From Acidobacteriota bacterium (GTDB taxonomy: Bacteria; Acidobacteriota; Holophagae; Acanthopleuribacterales; Acanthopleuribacteraceae), in NCBI GenBank assembly GCA_020439745.1, contig JAGQSC010000019.1, positions 434,001-498,000 of the forward strand: 64,000 nt of DNA, given 5' to 3'. A program made the translations under genes and the position numbers. Of this stretch, positions 23,695-43,642 are shown in pieces; the first letter of the stretch is position 1; the number at the start of each line of letters is the position of its first letter. The notes below the pieces were generated by a model, which made no database searches, was not told the origin of the DNA, and saw only the letters and a list, made by a program, of their open reading frames with translations.

Positions 23695-25962
23695 TCAAGG
23701 GCACATCTCTGACCAAGCACGCACCTGTTTCGCCATGGGGTCTGTGCTGGTACCAAAAAGATTGAGGCTTTCGGCAATGTGCGTCTTGGCCTGAACACAG
23801 TCCGATGATTTGATGAAGCACAGTCCCAAAACCCCGTGACATCGGGCAAGATCGGAATGATCGGGGTTTTGAACACTCGCTTGGGACAACCACTCAAGGA
23901 GTCTGAGCTTACCGACATCGGGTCGACCTAATAGCGCATCGCACCAGGCGGCGTTGATCATCACCGAGGGTTCAAGGTCTGGAGCCTGTACCTGTTGTTC
24001 GAGCATGAGACGAGCCCGTTGCAACAGGCCATCGGCATCATGGACTCGATTCAGAAACAGGTAACACAGCGCTAACTTGTTCAAAGCGGCAGGAATAGTC
24101 TTGGGGTCCTTCTCGGGATCTTCGTCCAGGACGCGCAAGCAGTCTTGATAGATTTCTGCCGCTTCTGACCACTGTTCCGTGACCATGCGCACGCCGCCCA
24201 GATTGAACAATGCACGAACGATGCTCGAATCGCCTGTGGGCATGATTCGTTTTCGCAGTTCATAGGTTTCCAAAAAGAGTCGTTCCGCATCGGCAAAGCG
24301 ACCTTGTTGATACCGCAAATAGCCGAAGTTGTTGAGCACCAAGGCGACCTGAGGATGAGCATCACCATAGATTTCCCGAGTCAATGCCAGCGATTCCTGA
24401 ATATTTGACGCTCCCGCATCATATTCTTTGAGGTTTGACTGACTCCGACCCAGATTGAATAGTGCATCGGCAAGAGCTTCCCGCTGGTCCAACTTTCGTG
24501 CCTGATCAACAACGCGTTCAAAGCAAGACTTGGCCACTTCATGATCGCCCCGTGCTTCTGCAACCTTGCCTTTGCCTACCCACAGTTCTGCCAAGTGGAG
24601 TTGAGATGAATCGTTTTGATGCATCATGGCTTCGGCTTCATTAATTAAGGCCCACGCGCGCTCAATTTGGCCTCGTTTATGTTCGACCATCGCTAGACGG
24701 ACCAGAGAAATCGAAAGTCCTTTGTCTTCGATTTCGCGTTGCATGCGTACTGCTTCGGTCAACAACTGTAGGGCCTTTTCGTTTTCATCGTTCATGCGGT
24801 TGACATGACCCAATACAGACATCATGCGGGCGCGGGTAGCCGGTTGGCGCGTGAGTTGTGTGGCAATTTCTTCGGAAGCCACGTCCAGAACATCCCTGAC
24901 CGACCTGCCCATCCGGCTCGCGGCATAGGGATCAGCCTCCTCAAAAAGCGCAATCAGAAACTGAGCAAACTCGTCGGACTGATCGCGAGCAATAAGAGCT
25001 TGTCGCTGTTGCGCCAGGGCATGTCGGTAGCCCAGTAATGAAGCGGCCAACCCAACTACCAAACTCACCAGAGTCAGGGTCAATAAGAACCGTTGACGAC
25101 GGCGTCGCGGCTTATCACAGATATGCGACAACCTCTGCTGCACCTCTTGTGCGCGAGGTCGCAGCGACACATCGGTCGCTTTCATGTCCTCCATCAGTCG
25201 CGCCAGTTCCCGATCCGTGTGAATCACGGGAAGGGTCTCTCCATTCATCGCACGCCAAAGAAGTTGCTCGGGGGCGATTCCCTTGGGATAAGGCAGTGTG
25301 CCACTAAAAAGCCACTGAAAGACAAGACCCATGGAATAGATATCGCTGGCGGGCGTCACTGCTTCGCCTCGCGCCTGCTCGGGGCTCATAAACATGGGCG
25401 TACCCACCACAAATCCCTGTTTGGTCCGAAAAACCCCACTGGGAAGCCGGTCCGGCTTGGGAACGTCAAATTCGGTGGCGGTCACGGCCAGGGGATCCAC
25501 CAACGTACGAGCTAGGCCAAAGTCAAGGATCTTCGCGTGACCCTCTGGGGTAATCATGATGTTAGCCGGCTTGAGATCGCGGTGTACCACCTGAACTCGG
25601 TGGGCTGCCGCCAACGCGTCCATGAGTTCGCTGGCGATGTTGAGTTTGGCTGAATCGTCTAAATGCGCCTGTCTCCGCTGCAAATTGTCGCCCGCCACCA
25701 GCTCAAGCACGATGTAGTCGCCCGAATCGTCATGAATCAGATCGTAGATGCGGCATAAGCCTGGATGTTCGAGCTTTGAAAGCGTGCGTGCCTCGCGTAG
25801 GAATCGAGCACGAGCCGCATCGTCAATACGGGTGCGATCCAGCACAGCTTTGACCGCAACCTTGCGTTCCAGTTCGGCATCGTAGCCCACGTAGACGGCA
25901 CCCATACCGCCTTCGCCAATCTTGTCAATCAGCCGTATCCGTCCAATCTGGGATCCCAACAT
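23695..25962 (-). CDS. Membrane-anchored Ser/Thr protein kinase with TPR domain
   Basis: 755 residues. The Hanks-type kinase domain (about 8-270) has the Gly loop IGEGGMGAVYVG, VAVKAVLD (Lys), VVHRDLKPANIM (catalytic loop), DFGLA and GTPMFMSPEQARG. A transmembrane helix follows at about 295-315 (LLTLTLVSLVVGLAASLLG), and the rest is a long run of TPR repeats. The kinase is cytoplasmic and the TPR array is predicted on the periplasmic side. The ATG at 25962 has GAGG eight bases upstream; the GTG at 25971 is less likely. It is a clear paralogue of the kinase at 41116. Its substrate is unknown. Confidence 0.9.
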   Translation of the reverse strand: MLGSQIGRIRLIDKIGEGGMGAVYVGYDAELERKVAVKAVLDRTRIDDAARARFLREARTLSKLEHPGLCRIYDLIHDDSGDYIVLELVAGDNLQRRQAHLDDSAKLNIASELMDALAAAHRVQVVHRDLKPANIMITPEGHAKILDFGLARTLVDPLAVTATEFDVPKPDRLPSGVFRTKQGFVVGTPMFMSPEQARGEAVTPASDIYSMGLVFQWLFSGTLPYPKGIAPEQLLWRAMNGETLPVIHTDRELARLMEDMKATDVSLRPRAQEVQQRLSHICDKPRRRRQRFLLTLTLVSLVVGLAASLLGYRHALAQQRQALIARDQSDEFAQFLIALFEEADPYAASRMGRSVRDVLDVASEEIATQLTRQPATRARMMSVLGHVNRMNDENEKALQLLTEAVRMQREIEDKGLSISLVRLAMVEHKRGQIERAWALINEAEAMMHQNDSSQLHLAELWVGKGKVAEARGDHEVAKSCFERVVDQARKLDQREALADALFNLGRSQSNLKEYDAGASNIQESLALTREIYGDAHPQVALVLNNFGYLRYQQGRFADAERLFLETYELRKRIMPTGDSSIVRALFNLGGVRMVTEQWSEAAEIYQDCLRVLDEDPEKDPKTIPAALNKLALCYLFLNRVHDADGLLQRARLMLEQQVQAPDLEPSVMINAAWCDALLGRPDVGKLRLLEWLSQASVQNPDHSDLARCHGVLGLCFIKSSDCVQAKTHIAESLNLFGTSTDPMAKQVRAWSEMCP

Positions 25963-26328
25963 ATTAGGCACCTCAATTTGGATTGTGCGTTTGTTTCCAA
26001 AGGGTTTCAGTATAGCTTGGAACCGAAACCAAAACTGATGTTGGGACTAGGGGGTCCAATATTGAATGCGAATGGGTTCAACCATTCTTGATTGCATTTG
26101 TCCCGGGGAAGCCGCGCCTATGGGGTTTCTTTGTAAATATTTCACCGATCTGGCGTTGAGTGACGGCCAACCGTAGCCATGAACTTAACACCAACGATCG
26201 ATGATTTCCTACGGAAGCACTATTCCACCGAAAACGAAGTGAGCTCCACTGGGACCACGGTGCCGGTGGTCCAACCGCCATTGAGGCTATTGGCCAACCC
26301 TATGTTCGTGGGCGACATGGCATCGCAA
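25963..26328. other. Intergenic region, 366 bp, no confident gene
   Basis: Between the kinase start and a small secreted-protein gene. It should hold the promoter of the kinase. The only candidate gene is a 58-codon plus-strand ORF, listed separately. I see no RNA gene, repeat or clear terminator. Confidence 0.6.
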
Positions 26329-29993: not shown

Positions 29994-30611
29994 CTACAGA
30001 CCAAGTAACATCACTGCTAATCCGGTGATCACAATCCCGAATCCGGTTGTGACATGGCTCGACAATAGGTGTTTCAATCTACGACCTCTTTCGATGCCCA
30101 ATGAAGCCAGCGAAACCTGGCTGACCATCATGGCGATGGTGATCACACCAAAGAGCAGGCCCACACCAATAATCGCGAACCAACCAAATGCGTAGGCCAA
30201 AAACATCAATGGAATCAGAGGTTCGCAGGGCCCCAAGACCAACGTTAGCACCAGAGCAGCTCCGAATCGCCGGCGGGTATGATGACCGCGGTCAGCCAGA
30301 TTGCGCCACCCCCAAACGGTATAGGCCAATCCAAAGCCAATCAATAAGAGGCCTGCCACAAAGCCCCGCTGATTCTCAAACCAAGCAGCCTGACTTAACG
30401 AAATACCCAACAACACACCCACACAGCCAATGAGCACGCTGCCACCCACATGCCCCATTCCAGCTAGCACAGTCATCCAAAGGCGCTTCCTGGACGGCCA
30501 ACCCTGAGCCGTAGACAGCTGCACCAGGGGAATCCAATGGTCAGGGGCCAGCGCGTGAAGTGCCGCAATCAATGACGTCGAAATGTAAAGAGCCCATAAT
30601 GATCCACTCAC
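29994..30611 (-). CDS. NicO/UreH-like nickel transporter
   Basis: 205 residues with about six transmembrane helices. The first carries HALAPDHW, which fits the HX4DH metal signature of nickel/cobalt permeases and their NicO/UreH-like relatives. Further conserved stretches are GMGHVGGS and LGPCEPLIPLMF. The GTG at 30611 is set by AGGAGGT at ideal spacing, 10 bp after hypE; a longer reading would run into hypE. Position at the end of the hyp operon strongly supports nickel supply for hydrogenase. A TauE/SafE-like exporter is the main alternative. Confidence 0.78.
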   Translation of the reverse strand: MSGSLWALYISTSLIAALHALAPDHWIPLVQLSTAQGWPSRKRLWMTVLAGMGHVGGSVLIGCVGVLLGISLSQAAWFENQRGFVAGLLLIGFGLAYTVWGWRNLADRGHHTRRRFGAALVLTLVLGPCEPLIPLMFLAYAFGWFAIIGVGLLFGVITIAMMVSQVSLASLGIERGRRLKHLLSSHVTTGFGIVITGLAVMLLGL

Positions 30612-30621
30612 GGCATACCTC

Positions 30622-31647
30622 CTAACAAATCCGCGGTAGCGGTTCACCGACCGGCAAGTCCAGCACCCGCTGCGTACCAAACCGTGTGTTGATGACGACA
30701 CCCACGCCCTCGTCGTGGATTTCACCGATGATGGCTGACTGCCGCCCCAAAGGATGAGACTGCCATGCACGAAGCACTGCATCTGCGCCCTCTGGCGCTA
30801 TGGCGAGAACCAGCTTGCCTTCGTTTGCCACATTCATGGCATCGATACCCAACATCTCGCAGGCACCACGCACACTCTCCCTGATTGGGATCTGTGCCTC
30901 ATGAAGCTGGATGAAGGTGTGGCTGGCCTGGGCAAATTCATGGAGGACCGCAACCAGTCCACCACGTGTCGCGTCCCGGCAGGCATGCACCGCTCCCTTG
31001 CCCTGGTCAACAGCTAACTGAACCAGGTCAAAAAGCGCGGCGCAGTCGCTGGTTACATCCGTTTCAAATGACAGGCCTTCCCGCTGAGACATGACGGCAA
31101 TGCCATGGTCGCCTAATGTGCCACTTACGATCAAAAGATCGCCGGGCCTTATGCGATGCACGGAAAGGGCAGGACCCTGCAAGATGCCCAATCCCGTCGT
31201 GTTGATATAAATCTTGTCGGCTTTCCCGCGAGGAACCACTTTGGTATCACCGGCGACAATCTGAACGCCTGCATCATCGGCAGCTTCGCGCATGGAAGCC
31301 ACGATCACTCGCAGATCCACCATAGAGAACCCTTCCTCCAGGATGAAACCAGCGGTGACATAGCGAGGTGTGGCACCGCTGACCGCCACATCGTTAACCG
31401 TTCCATAGATGGCAAGCGTGCCGATATTGCCGCCGGGAAAGAAGATCGGGTCCACCACAAAGCAGTCGGTGCTCACGGCCCATTGGTTCGGCAAGACAGC
31501 CGCGTCGTCTCTGCAACGCAAAAGGGGATTGTCAAAGGCGGCGAGAAACATGTCATCAATCAATTGGCCCATGGCCATTCCACCCGCACCATGGACCATT
31601 TGTACCTGATCGTATTTCAGTCTGGGAACAGGACAAACGAATTTCAT
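30622..31647 (-). CDS. hypE: Hydrogenase maturation protein HypE
   Basis: 341 residues of the PurM/AIR-synthase-like family. HypE dehydrates the carbamoyl group that HypF puts on its C-terminal cysteine to make thiocyanate, the source of the CN ligands on hydrogenase iron. The C-terminus ends PRIC, exactly the required terminal Cys. The N-terminal [15 protein letters not shown] and the DDAAVL motif are present. The ATG at 31647 overlaps the hypD stop as ATGA. Confidence 0.96.
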
Positions 31648-32735
31648 GGTGGCACCGCCCCATATTGGTAATAGGCCGCGCAGGCCCCCTCTGACGACAC
31701 CATGGTGGCACCTAGGGGGTGTTGCGGCGTGCATTGTGTCCCAAATGCCGGACAGTCATAGGGTTTCAGTTGACCTCTCAAAACCAATCCGCTCTGGCAG
31801 ACCTCCGGTTCATGCACGTCCAGATGTCCCAACTCAAAACGGGAAGCCGCATCAAAATCCTTAAATGCGTCGCGCAAAGCAAGCCCACTCAGTGGAATTG
31901 GGCCAATCCCCCGCCAGTTCCGGTCCGTAATCTCAAACACATCCTGAACCCGCTTCTGTGCCAGCGTGTTACCCGTGGCCCGCACTGAACGGGCATACTG
32001 ATTCTCAACGTCGCAACGACCCTCTTCCAGTTGCGAGACCAGCATGCACAGACCTTCCAGGACGTCGGTGGGTTCAAATCCCGTCGCGACGATCGGTACC
32101 TTGTATTGGGCCGCAATAGGTTCATAAGGTTCCGTTCCCATGATGGTGCACACGTGACCGGCCGCCAGATATCCTTGAACCCGGTTATCACTTGCCGCCA
32201 ACAATGCCGTCATTGCAGGCGGTACAAGCACGTGAGAAACCAGGACGGAGAAATTGGTCAATCCCTCCGCCTTTGCCTGCCACACAGCCATCGCATTGGT
32301 GGGCGCGGTCGTTTCAAAACCCACCGCAAAAAACACGACTTGCTTGTGGGGAAGCTTCCTTGCCAAAGCAACTGCATCAAGCGGTGAATAGACGATGCGT
32401 ACGTCACCACCCTGTGACTTCACGGTCATCAGATCACTATTCGAGCCCGGTACACGCAACATGTCACCAAAACTGGTGAACACCACGTCCGGCCTGGCCG
32501 CCAGAATAATTGCCTTGTCCAATAATTCGAGCGGCGTGACACAAACCGGGCAGCCGGGACCATGGACTAATTCAATCTTCGACGGAATCATCTGCTGGAT
32601 ACCGTGTTTGACAATGGCATGGGTTTGGCCACCGCATACCTCCATCACCACCCACGAATGGTGCGTGATTCGATGGAGGCGATCTACCAAACCCCTGACC
32701 AACTGTGGGTCGCGAAATTCATCGACGTATTTCAT
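31644..32735 (-). CDS. hypD: Hydrogenase maturation protein HypD
   Basis: 363 residues. HypD binds a [4Fe-4S] cluster and, with HypC, carries the Fe(CN)2CO unit. Its motifs are visible: [26 protein letters not shown], the [13 protein letters not shown] segment, and C-terminal cysteines in [17 protein letters not shown] (shortened here). The start at 32735 overlaps the hypC stop as ATGA. Normal length. Confidence 0.96.
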
Positions 32736-32974
32736 GGCCCATCCTCCAAGTGTTCCGCCCAACTTCTAAGCACATCTAGAGATTCTTGCGCCGACTTCGC
32801 GTCCATGAGGCTGATGGCGAATCCAGCATGAACAATCACGTAATCACCCACTTGAGCTTCGGGCGTGTATTCCAGACATATCTGTCTGCGCGTGCCGCCG
32901 TAGTCGATACACGCCATCAATACGTCTCGTTCCACGCCGCGTGAGATAACTTTGCCTGGAATGGCTAGGCACAT
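32732..32974 (-). CDS. hypC: Hydrogenase maturation chaperone HypC
   Basis: 80 residues starting [11 protein letters not shown]; the N-terminal Cys2 is the residue that binds iron and later contacts the large-subunit precursor. [14 protein letters not shown] is the conserved OB-fold part. It overlaps hypF by 10 bp and hypD by 4 bp, so it is fully coupled. Confidence 0.97.
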
Positions 32975-35238
32975 AGAACCCTCCCCGCTTCAATTTGGGC
33001 CGCTGCAACTGCGACCTGACCCAACGCAATGCCCCCGTCATTGGGCGGTACCTGACGGTGCGTGAAGACGTCGAATCCCGCAGCTTCCAAACCAGAGACC
33101 ATACTCTCCGTGAAGAGTTCGTTTTGGAAGACACCACCCGTCAAGCCTACGCGAAAACATCCGGTTAAATCGCGTGCCAATTCACAGGCTCTCACCCAAT
33201 AGGCCGCCAATGTTTCATGAAACGCTCGAGCCAGATGCGGCACGTTATGACGTAACTGTACAACCGGCTCCAAAAGCGGTTTCAGGGGAAGCGCTTCTAA
33301 GTGATGCAACTCGAAAGGCCAGGGATCGACTCGTGATACGTCACGTGCGATCATCTCCAGTTCAATCGCCGCTTGTGCTTCGTACGTAGCAGTCAAACGA
33401 ATACCGAGCATTGCGGCAACACCGTCGAACAACCGACCACAGGACGACGTAAGTGGCGCATGGAGCCCTTTAGCCATCATATGTGACCATGTTCCAATTT
33501 TATTGTCGTCAATTTGACACGTGAAGGGATGATCCATCCAACGGTCCGGTACCAGATGCCTGAGATACGCAATCGCCATTCTTTGTGGCTCTTTGATGGC
33601 ACGTTCACCGCCCGGCATGGGTACCGGTTCTAACCATGCCAGTCGCTCAAAATCCCTGGCGTTTCCGAATAAGAGTTCGCCCCCCCATATAGTGTCATCC
33701 AACCCATATCCGGTTCCATCCAGAACCACACCCAGGATCGGTTCTTCAATGTGATGTTCAGCCATTAATGAAGCTAGATGAGCGTGGTGATGCTGCACTT
33801 CAACACGTGGCAGCGTTTGGGCCCGCGCCCACTTGGCTGTCAGGTATTCGGGATGAAGGTCGCAGGCAACCACAGCGGGTTCAATCTCCAGGATCTCCTG
33901 CAAATGCGAGGTGCACTCTAGAAAGAAGGCGAAACTCTGGGCATGGTCTTGATCACCCAAGTGCTGCGATAGGAACACGCAGTCATCACGCGCCAAGGCA
34001 CTTGTGGCCTTGAATTGGCCACCACATGCAAGAATATTCACGGGAACGCCGCGTTTCAAAAAGACGGGTTCGGGAACGTAGCCCCTTGCCCTGCGGATAA
34101 GTACTTCACCCCGGCTTGTCATGTTGACCACGGAGTCGTCACAACGGGCTACAATGTCGCGATTGTGGAGCAGAAAGCCATCGCACAATCCTTTCAATCG
34201 AGCCTTGGCCTCATCGATTTCAGTGGCAATCGGTTCGTCACTCAGGTTGCCGCTGGTCATGACCAACGCATCCAAACCCTGATCAAAAAGCAACTGGTGA
34301 AGGGGTGTGTATGGCAACATGAGTCCCAACTTGGACTGGCCCGGAGCCACCCCATCACAAAAATCGTCATGCCTGGGCAACAAGACAATGGGTGCCTTCG
34401 GATCAGCCAGTACGGTTTTGGATTCTGGAGTCAGACAACACAGTTTTTCCGCAATCTTTAGGTCGGCGACCATCACAGCAAACGGTTTGTGTTCTCTCCC
34501 TTTACCGGTGCGCAGCTTAGCGATGGCGCGGGAGTTGCGAGGGTCAGCCGCCAAATGGAATCCACCCAAACCTCTAATCGCTAAGACACGGCCTTGTCTT
34601 AGGAGGTCTGCGGCGATCGCAAATACGCCCTTCCGCAGGGGTGGTGAGCCCTCCGCTTCGAGCCATACGTGGGGACCACAATTTGGGCATGCGACCGGTT
34701 GCGCATGAAAACGACGATTCGAAGGATTCATATACTCGCGTTTGCAGAAGTCACACATGGCAAATGCAGCCAAGGAAGTGTAAGGACGATCGTAGGGAAT
34801 CTGCCTGATGATCGTGAACCTGGGGCCGCAATTGGTGCAATTGATAAACGGGTACGCAAATCTGGGATCGAGCGGCGTATGAAGTTCATTCAAACAGTCG
34901 TCACACATGGCTACATCGGGGGATATGAGTGTTCGCGGCATTTGATCGTGAGTCGTTGCGACGATGACAAAATCAGAGTTACCCAAAGGCTCCAAAGGAG
35001 ACATGTCAATGGCAACGATTCGCGCAAGCCGCGGGAGCTCGCCCTGTAACCTGCTCACAAACTTTGCGACGCGTTCGGAATCGCCTTCAGCTTCAATGGT
35101 GACACCCAGGGCACCGTTATTGACGAATCCCGTCAATTGCTCTTCCTGCGCCAGGCGAAATACAAACGGTCGAAAGCCGACCCCTTGTACCATCCCCTTC
35201 ACTTGAAGGCGTATCCGTTCGATCAATGCCATGGGCAT
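32965..35238 (-). CDS. hypF: Carbamoyltransferase HypF
   Basis: About 757 residues in the usual order: acylphosphatase domain (GMVQGVGFRPFVFRLA), two zinc fingers (CDDC...CTNC and CDFC...CPNC), a YrdC-like domain (KGREHKPFAVMV), and the Kae1-like carbamoyltransferase domain with the metal motif VQHHHAHLASLM and the DGTGYGLD site. It moves carbamoyl phosphate onto the HypE cysteine. The ATG at 35238 follows an AGGGGG element; ATG 35232 two codons later is equally possible. The start is nested in the hypB 3' end. Confidence 0.95.
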   Translation of the reverse strand: MPMALIERIRLQVKGMVQGVGFRPFVFRLAQEEQLTGFVNNGALGVTIEAEGDSERVAKFVSRLQGELPRLARIVAIDMSPLEPLGNSDFVIVATTHDQMPRTLISPDVAMCDDCLNELHTPLDPRFAYPFINCTNCGPRFTIIRQIPYDRPYTSLAAFAMCDFCKREYMNPSNRRFHAQPVACPNCGPHVWLEAEGSPPLRKGVFAIAADLLRQGRVLAIRGLGGFHLAADPRNSRAIAKLRTGKGREHKPFAVMVADLKIAEKLCCLTPESKTVLADPKAPIVLLPRHDDFCDGVAPGQSKLGLMLPYTPLHQLLFDQGLDALVMTSGNLSDEPIATEIDEAKARLKGLCDGFLLHNRDIVARCDDSVVNMTSRGEVLIRRARGYVPEPVFLKRGVPVNILACGGQFKATSALARDDCVFLSQHLGDQDHAQSFAFFLECTSHLQEILEIEPAVVACDLHPEYLTAKWARAQTLPRVEVQHHHAHLASLMAEHHIEEPILGVVLDGTGYGLDDTIWGGELLFGNARDFERLAWLEPVPMPGGERAIKEPQRMAIAYLRHLVPDRWMDHPFTCQIDDNKIGTWSHMMAKGLHAPLTSSCGRLFDGVAAMLGIRLTATYEAQAAIELEMIARDVSRVDPWPFELHHLEALPLKPLLEPVVQLRHNVPHLARAFHETLAAYWVRACELARDLTGCFRVGLTGGVFQNELFTESMVSGLEAAGFDVFTHRQVPPNDGGIALGQVAVAAAQIEAGRVLCA

Positions 35239-35879
35239 AGCCCCCTTGACAGGTGGTAAGCGTTGGCCCGGACCTGGATATGGTCCACCCATGGACGCAA
35301 GAGGTTTTGGTCCTGGTCATTGACTTGCAAAACACTGATCAATGGATTCAAACGCTGGGCGTCGCGCCGGGCCTGCTCCAAATCAAACGATACGAAAGGT
35401 AACAAATCCGTCTTGCTAATAAGTAGGACATCGGCCGCCAAGACCGCCACCGGGTATTTCGCCAGTTTATCCGCGCCCTCTGCCACACTGAGCACCAACA
35501 CCCTCAGATGAGCACCAATGGGACAACTGGTTGGACACACCAGATTACCTACGTTTTCCACGAACACAAAGGGAACCCGATCCAAGTTTTCGTCAGGAAT
35601 CGCATGTAAATCTCTCGCTTCAAGATGGCACCGATTCGATGTGTCTATGTGCATGGTCCACTTGCAGTTAGGGTCAAAATCGGTGTGGTCGTGGAAACTG
35701 GACATCTCTCCATTGACGACGCCACATGGACCCATGAGAGGAATCGATGCTCGGATCAGTGAAGTCTTGCCACATCCAGGGGATCCGAGCAACTCAACCA
35801 CGTAACACTGGTGGGTATCAAAGTGCCGGCGTTGCGCGCTGGCATGAAGTTGCGTTTGATGCTTCAATGACCATTTCAT
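35223..35879 (-). CDS. hypB: Hydrogenase nickel-incorporation GTPase HypB (operon copy)
   Basis: 218 residues. The P-loop is LLGSPGCGKTSLI. The internal metal site is kept as CHLE plus the Cys of VENVGNLVCPTSC. The guanine-specificity motif reads SKTD instead of the usual NKxD. The N-terminus lacks the CxxCGC and His-rich stretch used by E. coli-type HypB to bind nickel tightly. This is the copy in the hypABFCDE operon, overlapping hypA as ATGA. Another HypB gene with the metal-binding N-terminus is divergent at 36300. Confidence 0.94.
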   Translation of the reverse strand: MKWSLKHQTQLHASAQRRHFDTHQCYVVELLGSPGCGKTSLIRASIPLMGPCGVVNGEMSSFHDHTDFDPNCKWTMHIDTSNRCHLEARDLHAIPDENLDRVPFVFVENVGNLVCPTSCPIGAHLRVLVLSVAEGADKLAKYPVAVLAADVLLISKTDLLPFVSFDLEQARRDAQRLNPLISVLQVNDQDQNLLRPWVDHIQVRANAYHLSRGLCPWH

Positions 35880-36211
35880 TCAACCACCTCGATAAACAAA
35901 AGGCGCACGTCATCACCCCCTCGAAATTTCACCCGATCCGATTGGCATTGAGGACAACACGACCAAGCTTGATCGGACTGAAATTCAGTTTTGCAGTTCG
36001 CGCATTCGGCTTGCCTCAACCCCGTGGCCACGGTCAATGTGGCTTCCTCCAGCAGCGTGCCCAGTTTTGCGACGCCGAAACCGTATTGCAACGCATGTAC
36101 CACCACACCACTCAACACGCCCACCTCCACCCCGACCTCGCTGATCTTCTGATCGGGAGCTTGTCTGGCCACTTCGGCCACAATTTGTTGGGCAACGCCT
36201 AGTTCGTGCAT
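35876..36211 (-). CDS. hypA: Hydrogenase nickel-incorporation protein HypA
   Basis: 111 residues. The N-terminal MHELG is the nickel site (His2). The zinc domain has CANC and CPQC pairs. HypA works with HypB to insert nickel into the large subunit. It is the first gene of the long minus-strand operon, 88 bp from the divergent hypB paralogue. The ribosome site is weak. Confidence 0.95.
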   Translation of the reverse strand: MHELGVAQQIVAEVARQAPDQKISEVGVEVGVLSGVVVHALQYGFGVAKLGTLLEEATLTVATGLRQAECANCKTEFQSDQAWSCCPQCQSDRVKFRGGDDVRLLFIEVVE

Positions 36212-36243
36212 AATATCGGAGTAGAAGATCCTTTAATACACAT

Positions 36244-36259
36244 CTATATTGCAATATAG
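36244..36259. promoter_or_regulatory. 16-bp perfect palindrome between divergent hypA and hypB2
   Basis: CTATATTGCAATATAG is a perfect dyad centred 32 bases upstream of hypA and 48 bases upstream of the hypB2 start. It sits where a regulator could control both arms of the hydrogenase locus. The AT-rich halves could also contain promoter -10 elements. It does not match the FNR consensus that I know. Confidence 0.45.
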
Positions 36260-36299
36260 GTCTCGCAACGCGAGTTGCCAATCAATTCAGGAGGCAAAT

Positions 36300-36953
36300 A
36301 TGTGTCGCGATTGCGGCTGTTCCAGCCAACCCGAGGACCACAGCGATGTGCTGCTGGCACGAAACGATCATCAGGCACAACATAACCGGCACCACTTCGA
36401 CCATTCCCACACGCTCTGCATCAATCTAATGGGTGCCCCAGGATGCGGTAAAACCCGGATGCTGGAACGAATGGCACCCGAACTGGAAGGCCTATTGGTG
36501 GTAGAAGGTGATCTGAGCGGCGAACTGGATGCACAGCGCATGCGGCGCGTGGGTATTCCCGCCATTCAGATCCAAACGGGCCAAGCCTGCCATTTGGATG
36601 CCCATATGGTGCACGAAGCGCTCCATCAACTCGATGATACGCCACGCTTACTGATCGTGGAGAACGTGGGCAACCTCGCATGCCCCGCCGATTTCGATCT
36701 GGGCGAGCATCTTCGCGTGGTCGCTGTGAGCGTCACCGAGGGCGACACCAAGCCAGAAAAATATCCAGCTATTTTTGCGGGAGCCGATGCGGTGGTCCTG
36801 ACCAAGTTGGACCTGTTGCCCCACGTCCGCTTCTCTGTGGAATCGTTTTGGCACCGTGTCAAAGCGCTCAACCCGAGCGCTCACACTTTTGAGATCGGCG
36901 CTGACCAAGACATCGCCCCGCTGGCCACTTGGATCAAAAATAACATTACATGA
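36300..36953 (+). CDS. hypB: Second HypB paralogue with Cys/His-rich metal-binding N-terminus
   Basis: 217 residues. It begins MCRDCGC, the CxxCGC nickel motif, followed by a His-rich stretch (HNRHHFDHSH). The P-loop is LMGAPGCGKTRML, the second metal site is CHLD plus the Cys of VENVGNLACPAD, and the guanine motif reads TKLD. AGGAGG lies eight bases before the ATG at 36300. It is the first gene on the plus strand, upstream of the hydrogenase structural genes, and so likely co-regulated with them. It is probably the main nickel-storing HypB, while the operon copy lacks these residues. Confidence 0.93.
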   Translation: MCRDCGCSSQPEDHSDVLLARNDHQAQHNRHHFDHSHTLCINLMGAPGCGKTRMLERMAPELEGLLVVEGDLSGELDAQRMRRVGIPAIQIQTGQACHLDAHMVHEALHQLDDTPRLLIVENVGNLACPADFDLGEHLRVVAVSVTEGDTKPEKYPAIFAGADAVVLTKLDLLPHVRFSVESFWHRVKALNPSAHTFEIGADQDIAPLATWIKNNIT

Positions 36954-37035: not shown

Positions 37036-38136
37036 ATGACCGATCCTTCTATCTGGGGAATCATGGCTCAGAAGGGCTATTCACGCCGTGATTTCTTGCA
37101 GTTTTGTACATATGCGGCGGCCCTCTCCGGATTGCAAAGTAACGCGGTAGCAGAGGTCGCCCAACAGTTCACCACCAAACCGAGGCCTCCAGTCGTCTGG
37201 CTCCATTTCCAGGAGTGCACCTGCTGCAGCGAGAGCTTTATCCGCGCATCGCACCCCATTGTTGCTGACGTCCTTCTGGACACCCTCTCGCTGGACTATA
37301 CCGAAACGCTTCAGGCAGCCGCTGGTCACCAGGCCGAGGCCTGCCTGCATGAAACCATGCGCGACCACCACGGTGATTACATTTTGCTGGTGGAAGGATC
37401 CGTGCCTATGAGTGCGGATGGTGTCTATTGCACCATTGGCGGACGGTCGGCTGAAGATATTTTGAAAGAAGCTGCGGAAGGTGCTGCAGCAATTGTCGCC
37501 TGGGGAAGCTGTGCCTCCAATGGATGCATTCAGGCAGCACGCCCCAATCCCACCAATGCGACACCGATCCATAAGATCCTCAATCGACCGGTGATTAACG
37601 TGCCCGGCTGTCCACCGATTGCCGATGTGATGACGGGCGTGGTCACACACCTATTGGTGTACGGACGCGCTCCGGAACTGGACAGTCGCGGCCGGCCGCG
37701 CTCCTTCTATGGACGACGGGTCCACGACACCTGCTATCGCCGTCCCTACTACGATGCCGGTCTGTTTGTGGCGTCCTGGGACGATGAGAATGCCCGTCGC
37801 GGTTATTGCCTTTACAAGATGGGCTGCAGAGGACCCGTCACTTACAACGCATGCGGCGTCACCAAATGGAATGAAGGCACCAGTTTCCCTATTCAGTCGG
37901 GCCACGGATGCATCGGGTGTAGTGAGGCCGGATTCTGGGACAACGGGCCATTCTATCAACATCTAGCGGCATTTCCCGGATTTGGTATCGAGGCCACCGC
38001 TGACAAGGTGGGCACCGTGGCAACAGTCGCCACGGCCGGTGCCCTGGGCGCACATGCTGTTTGGACCAATGTCCGAAAACACAAAGCGATCAAGGCAACC
38101 ATAGACGAATCCGTCAACGTAACCAGTGATTCGTAA
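37036..38136 (+). CDS. hyaA: Membrane-bound [NiFe] hydrogenase small subunit, oxygen-tolerant type
   Basis: 366 residues with a twin-arginine signal (SRRDFLQF) for Tat export. The proximal-cluster region reads CTCCSES and GSCASNGC, so both supernumerary cysteines (Cys19 and Cys120 of mature E. coli Hyd-1 numbering) are there, which in studied enzymes support a [4Fe-3S] cluster and function in air. The medial and distal cluster motif GHGCIGCSEAGFWD is present. A C-terminal hydrophobic helix (GTVATVATAGALGAHAVW) anchors it. AAGGGAG precedes the ATG. Confidence 0.95.
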   Translation: MTDPSIWGIMAQKGYSRRDFLQFCTYAAALSGLQSNAVAEVAQQFTTKPRPPVVWLHFQECTCCSESFIRASHPIVADVLLDTLSLDYTETLQAAAGHQAEACLHETMRDHHGDYILLVEGSVPMSADGVYCTIGGRSAEDILKEAAEGAAAIVAWGSCASNGCIQAARPNPTNATPIHKILNRPVINVPGCPPIADVMTGVVTHLLVYGRAPELDSRGRPRSFYGRRVHDTCYRRPYYDAGLFVASWDDENARRGYCLYKMGCRGPVTYNACGVTKWNEGTSFPIQSGHGCIGCSEAGFWDNGPFYQHLAAFPGFGIEATADKVGTVATVATAGALGAHAVWTNVRKHKAIKATIDESVNVTSDS

Positions 38137-38145
38137 GGAGGGCGT

Positions 38146-39864
38146 ATGGCACGCATTGTCGTCGATCCCGTAACCCGTATCGAAGGGCACTTGCGCATTG
38201 AGGCAACCGTAGAAAACGGCGTGATCACCGATGCCTACAGTGCGGGCACCATGGTGCGAGGTTTTGAGATTATCTTGCGGGGCAGAGACCCCCGCGATGC
38301 TTGGGCCTTCGCCGAGCGGGCCTGTGGTGTGTGCACCACCGTGCATGCATTGGCCTCGGTACGCAGTGTGGAAGACGCCTTGGACATACACATTCCCCCC
38401 AACGCGGAACTCATTCGCAACCTGATGTACTGCACGCAGATGGTCCAGGACCACGTGGTTCACTTCTATCATCTGCATGCACTGGATTGGGTGGATGTGG
38501 TCAACGCCCTTTCAGCCGACCCCACCGAAACCTCTGCTCTTGCCAAGTCCATTTCGCGCTGGCCGAAAACCTCGCCCCAATACTTCGCGGACGTTCAAAA
38601 TCGCATCAAGCGATTTGTGGAGAGCGGACAGCTGGGTATCTTCAAGAACGGTTACTGGGGACATCCACAATACAAATTACCCCCAGCAGCCAACCTGATG
38701 GCCGTGGCCCACTATCTGGAAGCCCTTGAATGGCAAAAAGAACTGGTGAAAATCCACGCCATATTTGGTGGCAAGAACCCGCACCCAAACTATCTTGTTG
38801 GCGGCGTACCCTGCTCGATTAACCTAGACGAAGTCAACGCCATTAACACAGAACGCCTGAACCACGTGGGTTATCTAATCAAAGGTGCCATAGATATCGT
38901 GGAGCAGATGTATTTGCCCGACCTTCTGGCAATTGCCAGTTACTATAAGGACTGGGCCGCGATCGGCGGCGGATTGAGTAACTACCTTGTCTATGGCGAC
39001 TTGCCCATGAACGGGGTCCGAGATGTCGACCAATTCAAATTTCCACGCGGCGCCATTCTGGATCGCAATCTGAACGAAGTCCACGAAGTCAATGGACGCG
39101 ACGAAGGTGAAATCAAGGAGTACATCAGCCATTCCTGGTATCGCTATTCTGTGGGTGATGACACCGGACTTCACCCGTTTGACGGGGAAACCGAATTCAA
39201 TTACACCGGTCCCAAACCACCTTATGAACACTTGAATGTGGATGAGAAGTATTCATGGCTGAAGACCCCGCGCTGGAAAGACCACCCCATGGAAGTGGGT
39301 CCTCTGGCACGCATGTTGGTGGCCTATGCCCATGGCCGAGATGATGTGAAAGAAGTGGTCCATGAAGCGTTGGGACACTTGGGTGTGGGCGTAGAAGCGC
39401 TTTTCTCCACGTTAGGTCGCACCGCGGCTCGCGGTTTGGAGACAAGGCTGGCCGTGCATTGGATGAAAGAGTTCTACGACGACCTGATCACGCACATCAA
39501 GTCCGGCGACACACGCACGTTCACCCAGGATATGTGGGAACCGGAAACCTGGCCTGACGTGGCTGAAGGGGTGGGCATGTCGGAGGCACCCAGAGGCGCA
39601 CTGGCTCACTGGATTCGTATCAAAGATCGCAAGATCGATAACTACCAGCTCGTGGTACCCACCACCTGGAATGCTTCGCCTCGAGATGCGAATGGGCAGC
39701 GATCGGCCTATGAATCCTCGCTACTTGGCACCCCGGTCGCTCATATCGACCAACCCCTGGAAATCCTGCGCACCATTCATTCGTTCGATCCATGCCTGGC
39801 TTGTGCGGTTCATCTCTATGATCCCCACGGCAATCACCTGGGACGTTTTCACGTGGAAGCCTAA
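38146..39864 (+). CDS. hyaB: [NiFe] hydrogenase large subunit
   Basis: 572 residues. The first nickel motif is [10 protein letters not shown] and the second is DPCLACAVH. The family opening is [14 protein letters not shown]. After DPCLACAVH there is a 16-residue C-terminal extension ([16 protein letters not shown]) to be removed by the maturation protease after nickel insertion. H2 is split to protons and electrons at the NiFe(CN)2CO site. It is 9 bp after the small subunit and travels with it through Tat. Confidence 0.97.
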
Positions 39865-39873
39865 GGGGGAATT

Positions 39874-40572
39874 ATGTCGATCACCCTCACGAGCCCCAGT
39901 TACAAACGCATTTATGTTTGGGAAATACCGGTTCGATTGTTTCACTGGCTGAATGCAGCCAGTTTAATCGTGCTTATGGCAACCGGTTATCTGATCGGCC
40001 ACCCGGCCACGTTGAGCCATAGTGCCGAGGCCTATCAACAATACTGGTTTGGCAACGTTCGATTCATCCATTTTGTTGCCGGTTATGTGTTCATGTTGAA
40101 TTTGCTGATACGTTTCTATTGGGGATTGGTGGGCAATCGCTACGCGCGCCTGCGCACGTTTTTTCCCAAAACCAAGGCGGAGATTCGCGAGTTGTGGGAA
40201 GTACTGCGCGTGGACATCTTTGAATTCGACAGGACCGCACATCCCACGGTTGGTCACAATCAATTGGCTAGTCTGTCTTACCTGATTCTATTCGTATTCA
40301 GCGTGTTTCAGATTGCCACGGGATTCGGTCTGTACGCGGCCATGAGTGACGGCTGGGTGGCATCACTATTTGGCTGGGTTGTCCCAGTGCTTGGAGGAGA
40401 TGGCGCGACGCGCGTGTGGCACCACGGAGCGATGTGGTTCTTTGTTCTGTTCACGTTGGTTCATATCTATATCGTGGCTTATCACGACTATGTTGAAGGA
40501 CGGGGTACCACATCGTCCATGGTGGGTGGCTGGAAATTTGAACGAGAGGACGTGCTTGACCGAAAAGATTGA
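39874..40572 (+). CDS. hyaC: Ni/Fe-hydrogenase b-type cytochrome subunit
   Basis: 232 residues with four transmembrane helices and the histidines that bind two b haems: FHWLNAASL, FIHFVAGY, and later RVWHHGAMWF and LVHIYIVAYHDYVE. It receives electrons from the small subunit distal cluster and passes them to quinone. The order small-large-cytochrome b-protease is that of group 1 uptake hydrogenases. Confidence 0.95.
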   Translation: MSITLTSPSYKRIYVWEIPVRLFHWLNAASLIVLMATGYLIGHPATLSHSAEAYQQYWFGNVRFIHFVAGYVFMLNLLIRFYWGLVGNRYARLRTFFPKTKAEIRELWEVLRVDIFEFDRTAHPTVGHNQLASLSYLILFVFSVFQIATGFGLYAAMSDGWVASLFGWVVPVLGGDGATRVWHHGAMWFFVLFTLVHIYIVAYHDYVEGRGTTSSMVGGWKFEREDVLDRKD

Positions 40573-41038
40573 TGTCTTGATTGTGGGCCTAGGCAATCTC
40601 ATCTTGGGTGACGAAGGTGTGGGCGTACACGCAGCTCGTAGGCTCGCTAAGGAAGACCTGCCCGACCGTGTTGCGGTTTTGGACGGCGGCTCGGGTGGCT
40701 TCCATTTGCTGGGTCCACTCACCGATGCGGATTGTCTGATCATCATGGACGCCGCATTGGACGATCAACCCCCAGGAACCGTGCAACACATCAGGCCCCG
40801 TTATGCCAGTGACTATCCCTCAAGCTTATCGGCTCATGACATTGGGTTGAAGGACATGTTGGAAGCCATCCACTTGTTGGACGGTCAAGTGGAGACCGAC
40901 CTCTTCACCGTGAGCATTGAAACACCCAAAACACTGAGTTTGGACCTGACACCACCCGTCCAATCGGGCATGGATGAGCTCATTCACCAAGTGAAACGTT
41001 GTCTGGCTTCTAGGTGCAAAAACGCCATGTCCCAATAA
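40556..41038 (+). CDS. hyaD: Hydrogenase maturation endopeptidase
   Basis: 160 residues. It clips the large-subunit tail after nickel insertion. Nickel-sensing residues of the HybD/HyaD family are present: Glu in ILGDEGVGVHAARRL, Asp in VLDGGSGG and His in SAHDIGLKDML. The start is TTG at 40556 with AGAGGA five bases upstream, overlapping the cytochrome gene by 17 bp. No ATG or GTG in frame retains the N-terminal strand. Confidence 0.9.
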   Translation: MTEKIDVLIVGLGNLILGDEGVGVHAARRLAKEDLPDRVAVLDGGSGGFHLLGPLTDADCLIIMDAALDDQPPGTVQHIRPRYASDYPSSLSAHDIGLKDMLEAIHLLDGQVETDLFTVSIETPKTLSLDLTPPVQSGMDELIHQVKRCLASRCKNAMSQ

Positions 41039-41115: not shown

Positions 41116-43590
41116 TCATTGCGTTTCAAACAGTTCGGCGGCCAGGGAGTCTGCGCGGGCTGTATCGGCTTGGTCGCGGACCGACTGGACCAAGTCCTCT
41201 GCGATTTCCTTCCAGTCGGCGTGCGCCTTGCCCACATAGGTTTCGAAACCCTTAAGCGCCTCGGTGAGCAAGGTTTCCACTGCCTTGTAGTCTTTTTGTT
41301 GGTTTTTCACGCGGGCTAGAGTGCGTTGGGCGTGAACCAGTTCTAAAGGTGCGTTATCGCAACGCGTCATCACGACCAACAACAGGTCTTCGGCCTCGGT
41401 CAACCGTCCCTTCTCCATCAAGATCGACGCATGGGTGACCCCTGCCCTTAACGTATTGGGGTGTGTCGTCCCAAACAATCGTTCGGTTAAAGGATAAACC
41501 CGTTCACTCAAAGCGTAGGATTCATCCACTAACCCAGCCGACCTCAGCACCCCTACCAGGCGCCGTTGTGTCTCCAAGGTATCAGGGTGTTCCGGACCCA
41601 GAGCCACGATCTGGCGCTCATTCACCTTCCGGTACCCATCGATCGCTGACTGTGCATCGCCTTGGTACTCGAGCACGCTGGATACGACAAATTGAGCTTT
41701 CAGCGTCAGAGGATGATCACGCCCGTAGGCAGCGCTTGCACGTTCCGCCACCAGATTTGCCTGTTGTGAGGCGGTGACAAAGTCGCGCATATTGATGGCC
41801 AACACCGCTCGGTTCATCATAAATGCCAACGTATCAGGATGGGCAATACCGTACACCGTTTGTGCGGATGCCACGATTCGGTCCATGAGCGGAACCACTT
41901 CATCCATGCGGCCCTGTTGCACCAACACACCCACCAGGTTCTGGCGTGTGTTCAGATTATCAGGGTGGTCTTCACCGTGGATCTCATCGAACACGGTCAA
42001 GGCACCGCGAAACAAGCGCTCCGCCTCGGCAAAATTGCCCTGATAGTAGTATACCGATCCCAGTTCTTGCTGGAGCGCAGCCTTGGTCTCCCTTTCAAGC
42101 GGATCTACTCGACCGTGTGTCTCCAACAGCCCTTCCAACAAACGCTTAGCCTGATCAAAGGCCCCTGTCTTGATGAGGATCTGCGCCTTGAGTCGCCTAC
42201 TGGCCTGCGTATCGGGGTGGTCGGAACCAAGTTGCGATTCGCGCTCCCCAATGACTTCATCCACTTTTTGCAGGGCTTGTTCGTAGTTACCATCAGCAGT
42301 GAGAACTTTTGCCAATAAGTGAAGTGTTTCAAGCGTTCTGAGATCCGTTTCGCCCAGTTTCGCTTTGCGAGACTTGTAGGCGAGATCTACATGCGTTCCC
42401 GCCCGTTCGGTTTCGCCCAGTGCCTCGTAAATGTCCGCAAAGGTATGATGAATACTGGCGCGAACCTGTTCGTCCTGAACAGACTCAAGCCGTTCCTCCG
42501 CATTGCTCAAGGCATCTATGATCGAAACGTCACGTCCTTTGGCTCGCGGATTAGCTGCCGTCAATACATCGTGCATAAATAGTCGCGTCATTTCCGACTC
42601 GTGGGCGGCCATCTCTGCCACATGCTTTTCCCGCGTAGCCACAAAAAAGCCCCAACTGGACACAGCGGTTCCCACAAGCAATGAACCGATAGCAAGCCCC
42701 CAAAGCCACCTGCGCACGCGCCGTTTCGGCTTGTCGATCAACCAAAGAACACGATCGAGTACTTCACGGGCTCGCGGTCGCTGCACGGCGTCAGGGTTCT
42801 TCATATCCTCGACTAAACGGGCCAGATCTCGTTCCAATCCCACGACCGGTCGCGTTTCTGCGCTCATAGTCTTCCATAAGAGCTGCGCTCTACTCAGCTC
42901 CGCGTCGTGGGGCAACTCCTCCATGAACATCCACTGCAGCAAAAGCCCAAAAGCATAAACGTCACTGGCAACCGTCAATCGGTCACCTCTCGCCTGTTCG
43001 GGGCTCATGAACATAGGCGTGCCCATCACATAGCCCTTACGGGTCTTGAAGACACCGGGCACGTCTTCCGACGAACTGTCATCGTGCGACAACGTGACCG
43101 TTGGGGCATTGGCATCCACCACCGATTGGGCCAGTCCGAAATCGAGAATCTTCACCTGGCCATGAGAAGTCACCATAATGTTGTCGGGCTTCAAATCGCG
43201 ATGGACAATGTTCAAAGTGTGGGCGGCCAAAAGTGCATCCGCGATCTGCGCGGCAATACCCAACTTCACATCCCGCGTTAATCCTCGAGCTACCTGACGA
43301 GTGAGGCTCTCCCCTTGCACCAGTTCCATCACAATGAAGTCGGCCAGATCACTGCGAATAAAGTCGTACACGCGGCAAATATGGGGGTGCTCAATTTGGG
43401 ACAGGACGACCGCTTCTCGCTCAAGCCGACCTTTGGCATCATCATCCAAGCGGTATCGATCACTCAACGCCTTGACCGCAACCTTACGCTTTAGGTCTTC
43501 ATCGAATCCTTCATAGACTTCGCCCATCCCGCCAGACCCAATCACGGCAACAATGCGAATACGCCCCACATGTTGACCCACCAAGCTCAT
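41116..43590 (-). CDS. Membrane-anchored Ser/Thr protein kinase with long TPR domain
   Basis: 824 residues. The kinase domain has VIGSGGMGEVYEG, VAVKALSD, VHRDLKPDNIM, DFGLAQ and GTPMFMSPEQARG. A transmembrane helix (about 305-327, WLWGLAIGSLLVGTAVSSWG) follows. The rest is an array of about ten Kinesin-light-chain-like TPRs, recognisable from repeats of LGxxHPDTL-type phrases (LGSDHPDT, YGIAHPDTLAF, LGPEHPDTLET, FGTTHPNTLRA). The ATG at 43590 has GGAG at good spacing. It is a paralogue of the kinase at 23695. It lies 52 bp after the receiver/PPDK-like gene. Confidence 0.9.
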   Translation of the reverse strand: MSLVGQHVGRIRIVAVIGSGGMGEVYEGFDEDLKRKVAVKALSDRYRLDDDAKGRLEREAVVLSQIEHPHICRVYDFIRSDLADFIVMELVQGESLTRQVARGLTRDVKLGIAAQIADALLAAHTLNIVHRDLKPDNIMVTSHGQVKILDFGLAQSVVDANAPTVTLSHDDSSSEDVPGVFKTRKGYVMGTPMFMSPEQARGDRLTVASDVYAFGLLLQWMFMEELPHDAELSRAQLLWKTMSAETRPVVGLERDLARLVEDMKNPDAVQRPRAREVLDRVLWLIDKPKRRVRRWLWGLAIGSLLVGTAVSSWGFFVATREKHVAEMAAHESEMTRLFMHDVLTAANPRAKGRDVSIIDALSNAEERLESVQDEQVRASIHHTFADIYEALGETERAGTHVDLAYKSRKAKLGETDLRTLETLHLLAKVLTADGNYEQALQKVDEVIGERESQLGSDHPDTQASRRLKAQILIKTGAFDQAKRLLEGLLETHGRVDPLERETKAALQQELGSVYYYQGNFAEAERLFRGALTVFDEIHGEDHPDNLNTRQNLVGVLVQQGRMDEVVPLMDRIVASAQTVYGIAHPDTLAFMMNRAVLAINMRDFVTASQQANLVAERASAAYGRDHPLTLKAQFVVSSVLEYQGDAQSAIDGYRKVNERQIVALGPEHPDTLETQRRLVGVLRSAGLVDESYALSERVYPLTERLFGTTHPNTLRAGVTHASILMEKGRLTEAEDLLLVVMTRCDNAPLELVHAQRTLARVKNQQKDYKAVETLLTEALKGFETYVGKAHADWKEIAEDLVQSVRDQADTARADSLAAELFETQ

Positions 43591-43642
43591 AAGCTGCTCC
43601 TGGCCCACATTCTATCTGTAATTGCTTGGATCGCCGAAATAT

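Follow-up and report, generated by a model that had tools for sequence, protein, structure and literature searches.

Two Unequal HypB Paralogues in the Gene Cluster of a Single [NiFe] Hydrogenase from an Acidobacteriota Bacterium

Introduction

The GTPase HypB is described as a protein that binds nickel, dimerizes in a GTP-driven manner, and works in partnership with HypA (PMC7055735, PMC12134894). The field has yet to settle the path that nickel takes among the N-terminal site of HypB, the site in its GTPase domain, HypA, and the hydrogenase. Here, we describe two HypB paralogues, HypB1 and HypB2, encoded at positions 35223-36953 of a 64,000-nucleotide stretch of DNA from an Acidobacteriota bacterium (positions 434,001 to 498,000 of contig JAGQSC010000019.1, assembly GCA_020439745.1), which as a whole is called the window. 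Both genes lie in the cluster of one [NiFe] hydrogenase, and it is possible, with a likelihood that we would place a little below even, that the two proteins share the work on this one enzyme, perhaps as a mixed dimer. If the features of HypB are truly spread over two proteins for one hydrogenase, each nickel step could be removed separately.

Among the described systems, E. coli HypB has an N-terminus of the same kind (CXXCGC) as HypB2, which likewise has an intact GTPase core; HypB2 differs in that it has no pair of the Leu-78/Val-80 type and shares its cluster with a second HypB. The high-affinity CXXCGC site is called unique to E. coli HypB in the part of PMC7055735 that deals with it, and the motif is present in 82 of the 139 HypB rows of our alignment. 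The HypBs of A. fulgidus, M. jannaschii, and H. pylori (2wsm, 2hf8, and 4lps), whose N-termini have no Cys motif, are the best PDB matches of both copies in sequence and fold. HypB1 nevertheless departs from them at Asp-66 and Arg-75, and its model has no switch-I helix.

Cupriavidus necator reportedly carries the duplicated sets hypA1B1F1 and hypA2B2F2, and hence two HypBs in one organism. In that bacterium, as in Synechocystis, hypA is duplicated, whereas HypA and the hydrogenase large subunit are both single here. The Synechocystis pair, HypB1 and HypB2, is treated in PMC4517062. The likeness is closer in G004, a genome of the same family, in which (locus L063) the HypB beside HypA has no Cys motif and a Cys-motif HypB is encoded on the opposite strand. 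In G004, other genes spanning about 7.6 kb separate hypA from the second hypB, the hydrogenase is of a different type, and both the large-subunit loci and the HypA matches number two. Of the two copies described here, only HypB2 groups with G004, and weakly. Searches of the open literature, in which most subscription papers are missing, listed no paper on a pair of hypB genes that divides its features like this within one cluster. Two HypBs per organism are already known.

The Two hypB Genes and Their Cluster

The two genes, their residues of interest, and the hypA gene between them are as follows.

35223..35879, minus strand: hypB1 (operon copy), 218 residues, with an ATGA overlap with hypA
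35763..35786, minus strand: hypB1 P-loop GSPGCGKT, residues 32-39, from the sequence
35706..35708, minus strand: hypB1 Glu58, aligned with A. fulgidus Asp-66 (an Asp in 135/135 others), from the alignment; role described in PMC3262836
35679..35681, minus strand: hypB1 Asp67, in the place of Arg-75, from the alignment; role described in PMC3262836
35625..35630, minus strand: hypB1 metal-site Cys84-His85, from the alignment
35535..35537, minus strand: hypB1 metal-site Cys115, from the alignment
36300..36953, plus strand: hypB2 (divergent copy), 217 residues, with AGGAGG five bases 5′ of the ATG
36303..36320, plus strand: hypB2 Cys2-Cys7 motif CRDCGC, from the sequence
36333..36341, plus strand: hypB2 Glu12-Asp13-His14, in the place of the hydrophobic HypA-docking pair, from the alignment; role described in PMC3287977
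36588..36593, plus strand: hypB2 metal-site Cys97-His98, from the alignment
36681..36683, plus strand: hypB2 metal-site Cys128, from the alignment
35876..36211, minus strand: hypA, 111 residues, the sole HypA match in the genome

The source genome (5.1 Mb in 65 contigs, 97% complete) contains exactly two matches to TIGR00073. These are HypB1 at 169.3 bits and HypB2 at 233.4 bits, both above the cut-off of 121.2 bits, so that the two hypB genes read from the sequence are confirmed; an alignment of 187 residues puts their identity at 36%. Searches of the genome gave a single [NiFe] large subunit, a single HypA match, and no match to urease alpha. UreG, a relative of HypB, serves urease. UreG identity was rejected for both copies, which score only 35.8 and 21.6 bits with TIGR00101 (cut-off 204.2) in a genome with no urease alpha match. 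Urease as the partner of one copy was likewise rejected on that negative search, and the idea of two hydrogenase systems, each with its own HypB, on the single large subunit and single HypA. The HypA score of 79.0 bits is below the NCBIfam cut-off of 88.1. We dropped the idea that this is a sign of co-evolution, since 6 of the 12 genomes checked have no HypA above the cut-off.

The start of hypB2 is 88 bases from the divergent hypA, and its end is followed, after 82 bases, by the small-subunit gene, read in the same direction; no terminator-like site was found in that gap. A scan for promoters and terminators gave one promoter-like and two terminator-like sites, a count equal to chance expectation. 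Thus hypB2 is the leading gene of the structural run, and both copies are within operon-like runs; the sequence-only reading had given an operon to just one of them, which does not hold.

Conserved and Altered Residues

The alignment combines both copies with 135 other HypB rows of sampled loci. Among these are 80 genome_contigs loci, which were selected on P-loop and ENVGNLVC patterns and listed in order of their similarity to HypB1. Because the loci were picked on those patterns, conservation at the two motifs is partly by construction, and the Asp-66 and docking columns fall outside them. Three matches without a P-loop and two rows shorter than 170 residues were left out, 67 of the 139 rows are absent from the 72-row tree discussed below, and L086_2, counted among the 135, repeats the HypA-adjacent copy of G004 in clipped form.

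The GTPase core is retained in both proteins. Each has the P-loop sequence PGCGKT, the Lys and Asp of G4 (K156/D158 in HypB1, K169/D171 in HypB2), and the Cys-His...Cys metal site, C84/H85/C115 in HypB1 and C97/H98/C128 in HypB2. The Asp-72/Lys-148 pair, which forms an intermolecular salt bridge required for HypB dimerization by the account in PMC3262836, is present as D64/K141 and D77/K154, respectively. The N-termini are the first point of difference between the copies. From the ATG at 36300, HypB2 begins MCRDCGCS, with Cys at positions 2, 5, and 7 and seven His ahead of the P-loop; it has the CXXCGC motif of the E. coli type, a putative nickel site. HypB1, which has four His within the 31 residues ahead of its P-loop, is one of the 57 rows of 139 without the motif.

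Much of what had been read from the letters alone is borne out by these residues, namely the P-loop and internal Cys-His site in both copies and, in the divergent copy, the nickel-type Cys N-terminus with its His. Two further statements need amendment. The operon copy was said to have neither CxxCGC nor His, and the first half is correct while the second is contradicted by the four His. The substitutions in NKxD (SKTD and TKLD) are real, yet they are no unusual feature, for the first letter of G4 varies among the 139 rows, the window pair included (N 67, T 49, S 12, in a rough pattern count). A. fulgidus HypB is itself given NKxA in PMC3262836. The notion that they alter nucleotide choice was accordingly rejected as ordinary HypB variation.

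The second difference is in switch I. Twenty-three columns are invariant in the 135 other rows; HypB2 keeps all of them and HypB1 keeps 22. The sole exception is Glu58, where 135/135 have Asp. This residue, Asp-66 of A. fulgidus, occupies the γ-phosphate pocket in the apo form, and Arg-75 touches the α-phosphate, as reported in PMC3262836. At the Arg-75 position HypB1 has Asp67, and the others have Arg (127/135), Lys (5), or Thr (3). The switch I of HypB2 has both canonical residues (D71 and R80). As judged from its residues, HypB1 lacks both, and canonical switching by HypB1 is not claimed. When the 50 columns conserved in at least 90% of rows are considered, HypB1 breaks 11, the highest number of all rows, followed by rows with 9, 8, and 8 and then by HypB2 with 7.

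Single-chain AlphaFold models have mean predicted local distance difference test (pLDDT) values of 93.2 for HypB1 and 93.5 for HypB2. The best fold matches of both are solved HypBs (2hf8_B with HypB1: Z 28.8, root-mean-square deviation 1.6, 203 aligned residues; with HypB2: Z 29.8, 1.2, 201). The HypB2 model has a switch-I helix at residues 76-83; in that of HypB1 there is no helix in residues 50-87, where pLDDT drops as low as 73 across residues 61-70. Additional Cys and His residues of HypB1 (35523-35726, minus strand) are found in or near switch I (C52, H63, H65, C72, and H77), with Cys119 near the metal ligand Cys115; these could have arisen by drift or could form an additional metal site.

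HypA Docking

A hydrophobic pair, Tyr-4/Leu-6 in A. fulgidus and Leu-78/Val-80 in E. coli, is needed for HypA binding, and the L78A and V80A variants of E. coli HypB did not restore hydrogenase in the experiments given in PMC3287977. At exactly these positions, 128 of the 135 other HypBs have two residues from among V, I, L, M, F, Y, and W, and 131 do so when a shift within six residues is allowed. Three more have two such residues spaced otherwise, and a single row has only one, this being the Cys-motif HypB of G004. The corresponding stretch of HypB2, QPEDHS, has no hydrophobic residue at all, with Glu12 and His14 at the pair positions, and none of the 135 others is like it. The N-terminus of HypB1 starts at the second position of the pair, too late for the usual placement; no other in-frame ATG, GTG, or TTG occurs upstream of its start before a stop.

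Divergence and Relatives

HypB1 is the more divergent copy. When ten HypB rows from related clusters are compared with it, the mean identity is 30.7%, against 40.0% for HypB2 and 42-50% for those rows among themselves. The branch of HypB1 is the longest of all, at 3.26 in one tree and 2.86 in the 72-row tree. In the 72-row tree, HypB2 falls beside the Cys-motif HypB of G004, though weakly (support 88/89, not starred). HypB1 is found beside L064 (genome G267) in both trees; long-branch attraction is likely, and trees with either copy omitted gave it no firm place. Approximately unbiased (AU) tests reject none of the groupings HypB1 with HypB2 (p 0.381), HypB1 with the HypA-adjacent copy of G004 (p 0.234), or HypB1 and HypB2 with the Cys-motif copy of G004 (p 0.317). 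In favor of a recent duplication, a spacing of 44 between GKT and CH is present in both copies and in 0/135 others, and both have PGCGKT, as does 1/135 others. Against it, HypB1 and HypB2 share 2 rare residues, HypB1 and L064 share 7, and HypB2 and L152 share 7.

No near orthologue of HypB1 was found with single-sequence patterns in genome_contigs. In an alignment-based search, the best identity to HypB1 was 43% among the best 80 of 547 confirmed loci; in a sample of the phylum it was about 42% among the matches listed, and no plasmid row among the matches listed (15 of 139) was more than 39.1% identical.

In the phylum sample, 175 of 396 genomes match HypB1 at E 1e-12, and eight have two HypBs, the source genome included. 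Six of these eight have two HypA matches, against one each in the source genome and G044. By a script count, one of 79 HypB-bearing loci of at least 10 kb holds a further HypB, namely L063 of G004, so that such a locus is rare. That genome is one of six others of the same family that were compared. Its HypA-adjacent HypB has the docking pair I/L, and the pair of its opposite-strand copy is reduced; the arrangement in the source genome is alike, save that its HypA-adjacent copy is also without the docking pair. A rule by which the copy away from hypA loses the pair fails outside the family: in L074 of G044, the hydrophobic pair is off register by one and present with a shift. Of the other family members, G002 (L077:9413-10270) has a single HypB in which a long N-terminus rich in Cys and His is combined with an intact docking pair, and G001, of the same genus as the source genome, has neither HypB nor a large subunit. 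G003, a single contig, has a large subunit, protease, HypC, HypD, HypE, and HypF (L171, G003:C1:4843000-4862900). In G003, HypB2 had no match at E 0.001 and TIGR00073 only weak matches (best 1.8e-5), and a HypA search confined to this 20 kb region found none.

Discussion

Since there is one large subunit, one HypA, and no urease match, division of labor or a mixed dimer is the leading idea. Division of labor had been suggested from the sequence, and this part of the suggestion stands. A simple split between nickel storage and GTP-dependent work does not, for it is HypB2 that has both the Cys N-terminus and the better GTPase switch, while in HypB1 switch I is altered and the sequence diverges most. 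We propose that the two, neither of which has all the features joined in an ordinary HypB, divide its work: HypB2, encoded ahead of the structural genes, would capture nickel and run the GTP switch, and HypB1, translated with HypA and HypF, would be a second subunit that pairs with HypB2 through the retained dimer face, with the interface metal site held in common. Contact with HypA would be made in another way, and we can only guess that Met1, Trp3, and Leu5 of HypB1 might serve as a substitute. This reading is supported by the intact frame of HypB1, its ATGA overlap with hypA, and its confident HypB fold. The dimer pair kept in both copies also speaks for it, as does the family comparison, in which G004 has a similar pair of HypBs and the single HypB of G002 combines both features. 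A stricter form of this arrangement is an obligate asymmetric heterodimer, in which a nickel-charged, GTP-switching HypB2 half and a switch-I-altered HypB1 half made with HypA have one shared interface nickel site. We regard this form as unlikely. If true, it would be a pair like Ffh and FtsY, paralogous and of the same GTPase class, in nickel delivery.

Several facts weigh against a sharing of work. HypB1 has no docking pair at the usual place, although its gene adjoins hypA. The outline shared with G004 is seen in two genomes only, both of one family, a number that does not allow a rule. Outside the family, G044 has two HypBs and a single HypA and departs from this outline, and G004 has two hydrogenase loci, so that its two HypBs may have another reason. 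A general rate effect may also be behind part of the divergence of HypB1, as the mean identity of the HypA of this cluster is 30.0% versus 31-37% among relatives, that of HypE 47.6% versus 51-64%, and that of HypF 42.7% versus 45-56%.

It may instead be that HypB1 is redundant or decaying, that a HypB2 homodimer alone matures the hydrogenase, and that HypB1 persists mainly by its position between hypA and hypF. The longest branch, the 11 of 50 broken conserved columns, and the altered switch I are all as decay would have them. HypB1 is nonetheless unlike a freely decaying protein because 22 of 23 invariant residues are kept at about 36-39% identity to relatives, and its open frame overlapping hypA and confident fold point the same way. 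Moreover, HypB2 is without the docking pair needed by E. coli HypB according to PMC3287977, so it is not obvious that HypB2 could act alone. We take redundancy or decay to be a strong rival, though somewhat less likely than shared work; if HypB1 were dispensable, it would be an example of a maturation GTPase decaying in an otherwise complete cluster. Independent homodimers, with HypB2 serving when nickel is scarce through its N-terminal site and HypB1 acting as a plain HypB when it is ample, would fit the frequency of HypBs without the Cys motif (57/139) and the presence of the dimer pair and metal site in both copies. Glu58 and Asp67 make an ordinary GTP-driven HypB1 homodimer doubtful, however, and the usual docking pair is absent from both copies, which leaves this arrangement distinctly improbable. 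A further alternative is that one copy works for another metalloenzyme. According to PMC4517062, the extra Synechocystis copies may act on other metalloproteins. Here, both genes are inside the hydrogenase cluster, and the search, which covered hydrogenase and urease, found one large subunit, one HypA, and no urease alpha; service to another nickel enzyme by one copy, most likely HypB1, is very improbable.

Other Genes of the Locus

The order on the minus strand is hypA, hypB1, hypF, hypC, hypD, hypE, and a membrane-protein gene, with the listed frames mutually overlapping; on the plus strand, hypB2 is followed by genes for the hydrogenase small subunit, large subunit, b-type cytochrome, and protease.

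32965..35292, minus strand: hypF, longest frame, likely start nearer 35238, family match
32732..32974, minus strand: hypC, family match
31644..32762, minus strand: hypD, family match
30622..31734, minus strand: hypE, longest frame, family match
29994..30782, minus strand: membrane protein, longest frame 262 residues, no family match at E 0.001
37036..38136, plus strand: hydrogenase small subunit, family match
38146..39864, plus strand: [NiFe] hydrogenase large subunit, single in the genome
39874..40572, plus strand: hydrogenase b-type cytochrome, family match
40346..41038, plus strand: hydrogenase maturation protease, longest frame, its domain starting near residue 77, family match

The membrane-protein gene is the last gene of the hyp operon. 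Its product contains HALAPDH and, in Pfam and NCBIfam, has one sub-threshold Pfam match and none at E 0.001. The motif resembles nickel permeases of the NiCoT/HupE type, and the protein may be such a permease. A 36% identical homologue adjoins hypE in G004 (L172:3780-4427). The cluster is flanked by two long genes on the minus strand (23695-25971 and 41116-43608), the products of which read like serine/threonine kinases with repeat-rich C-terminal parts.

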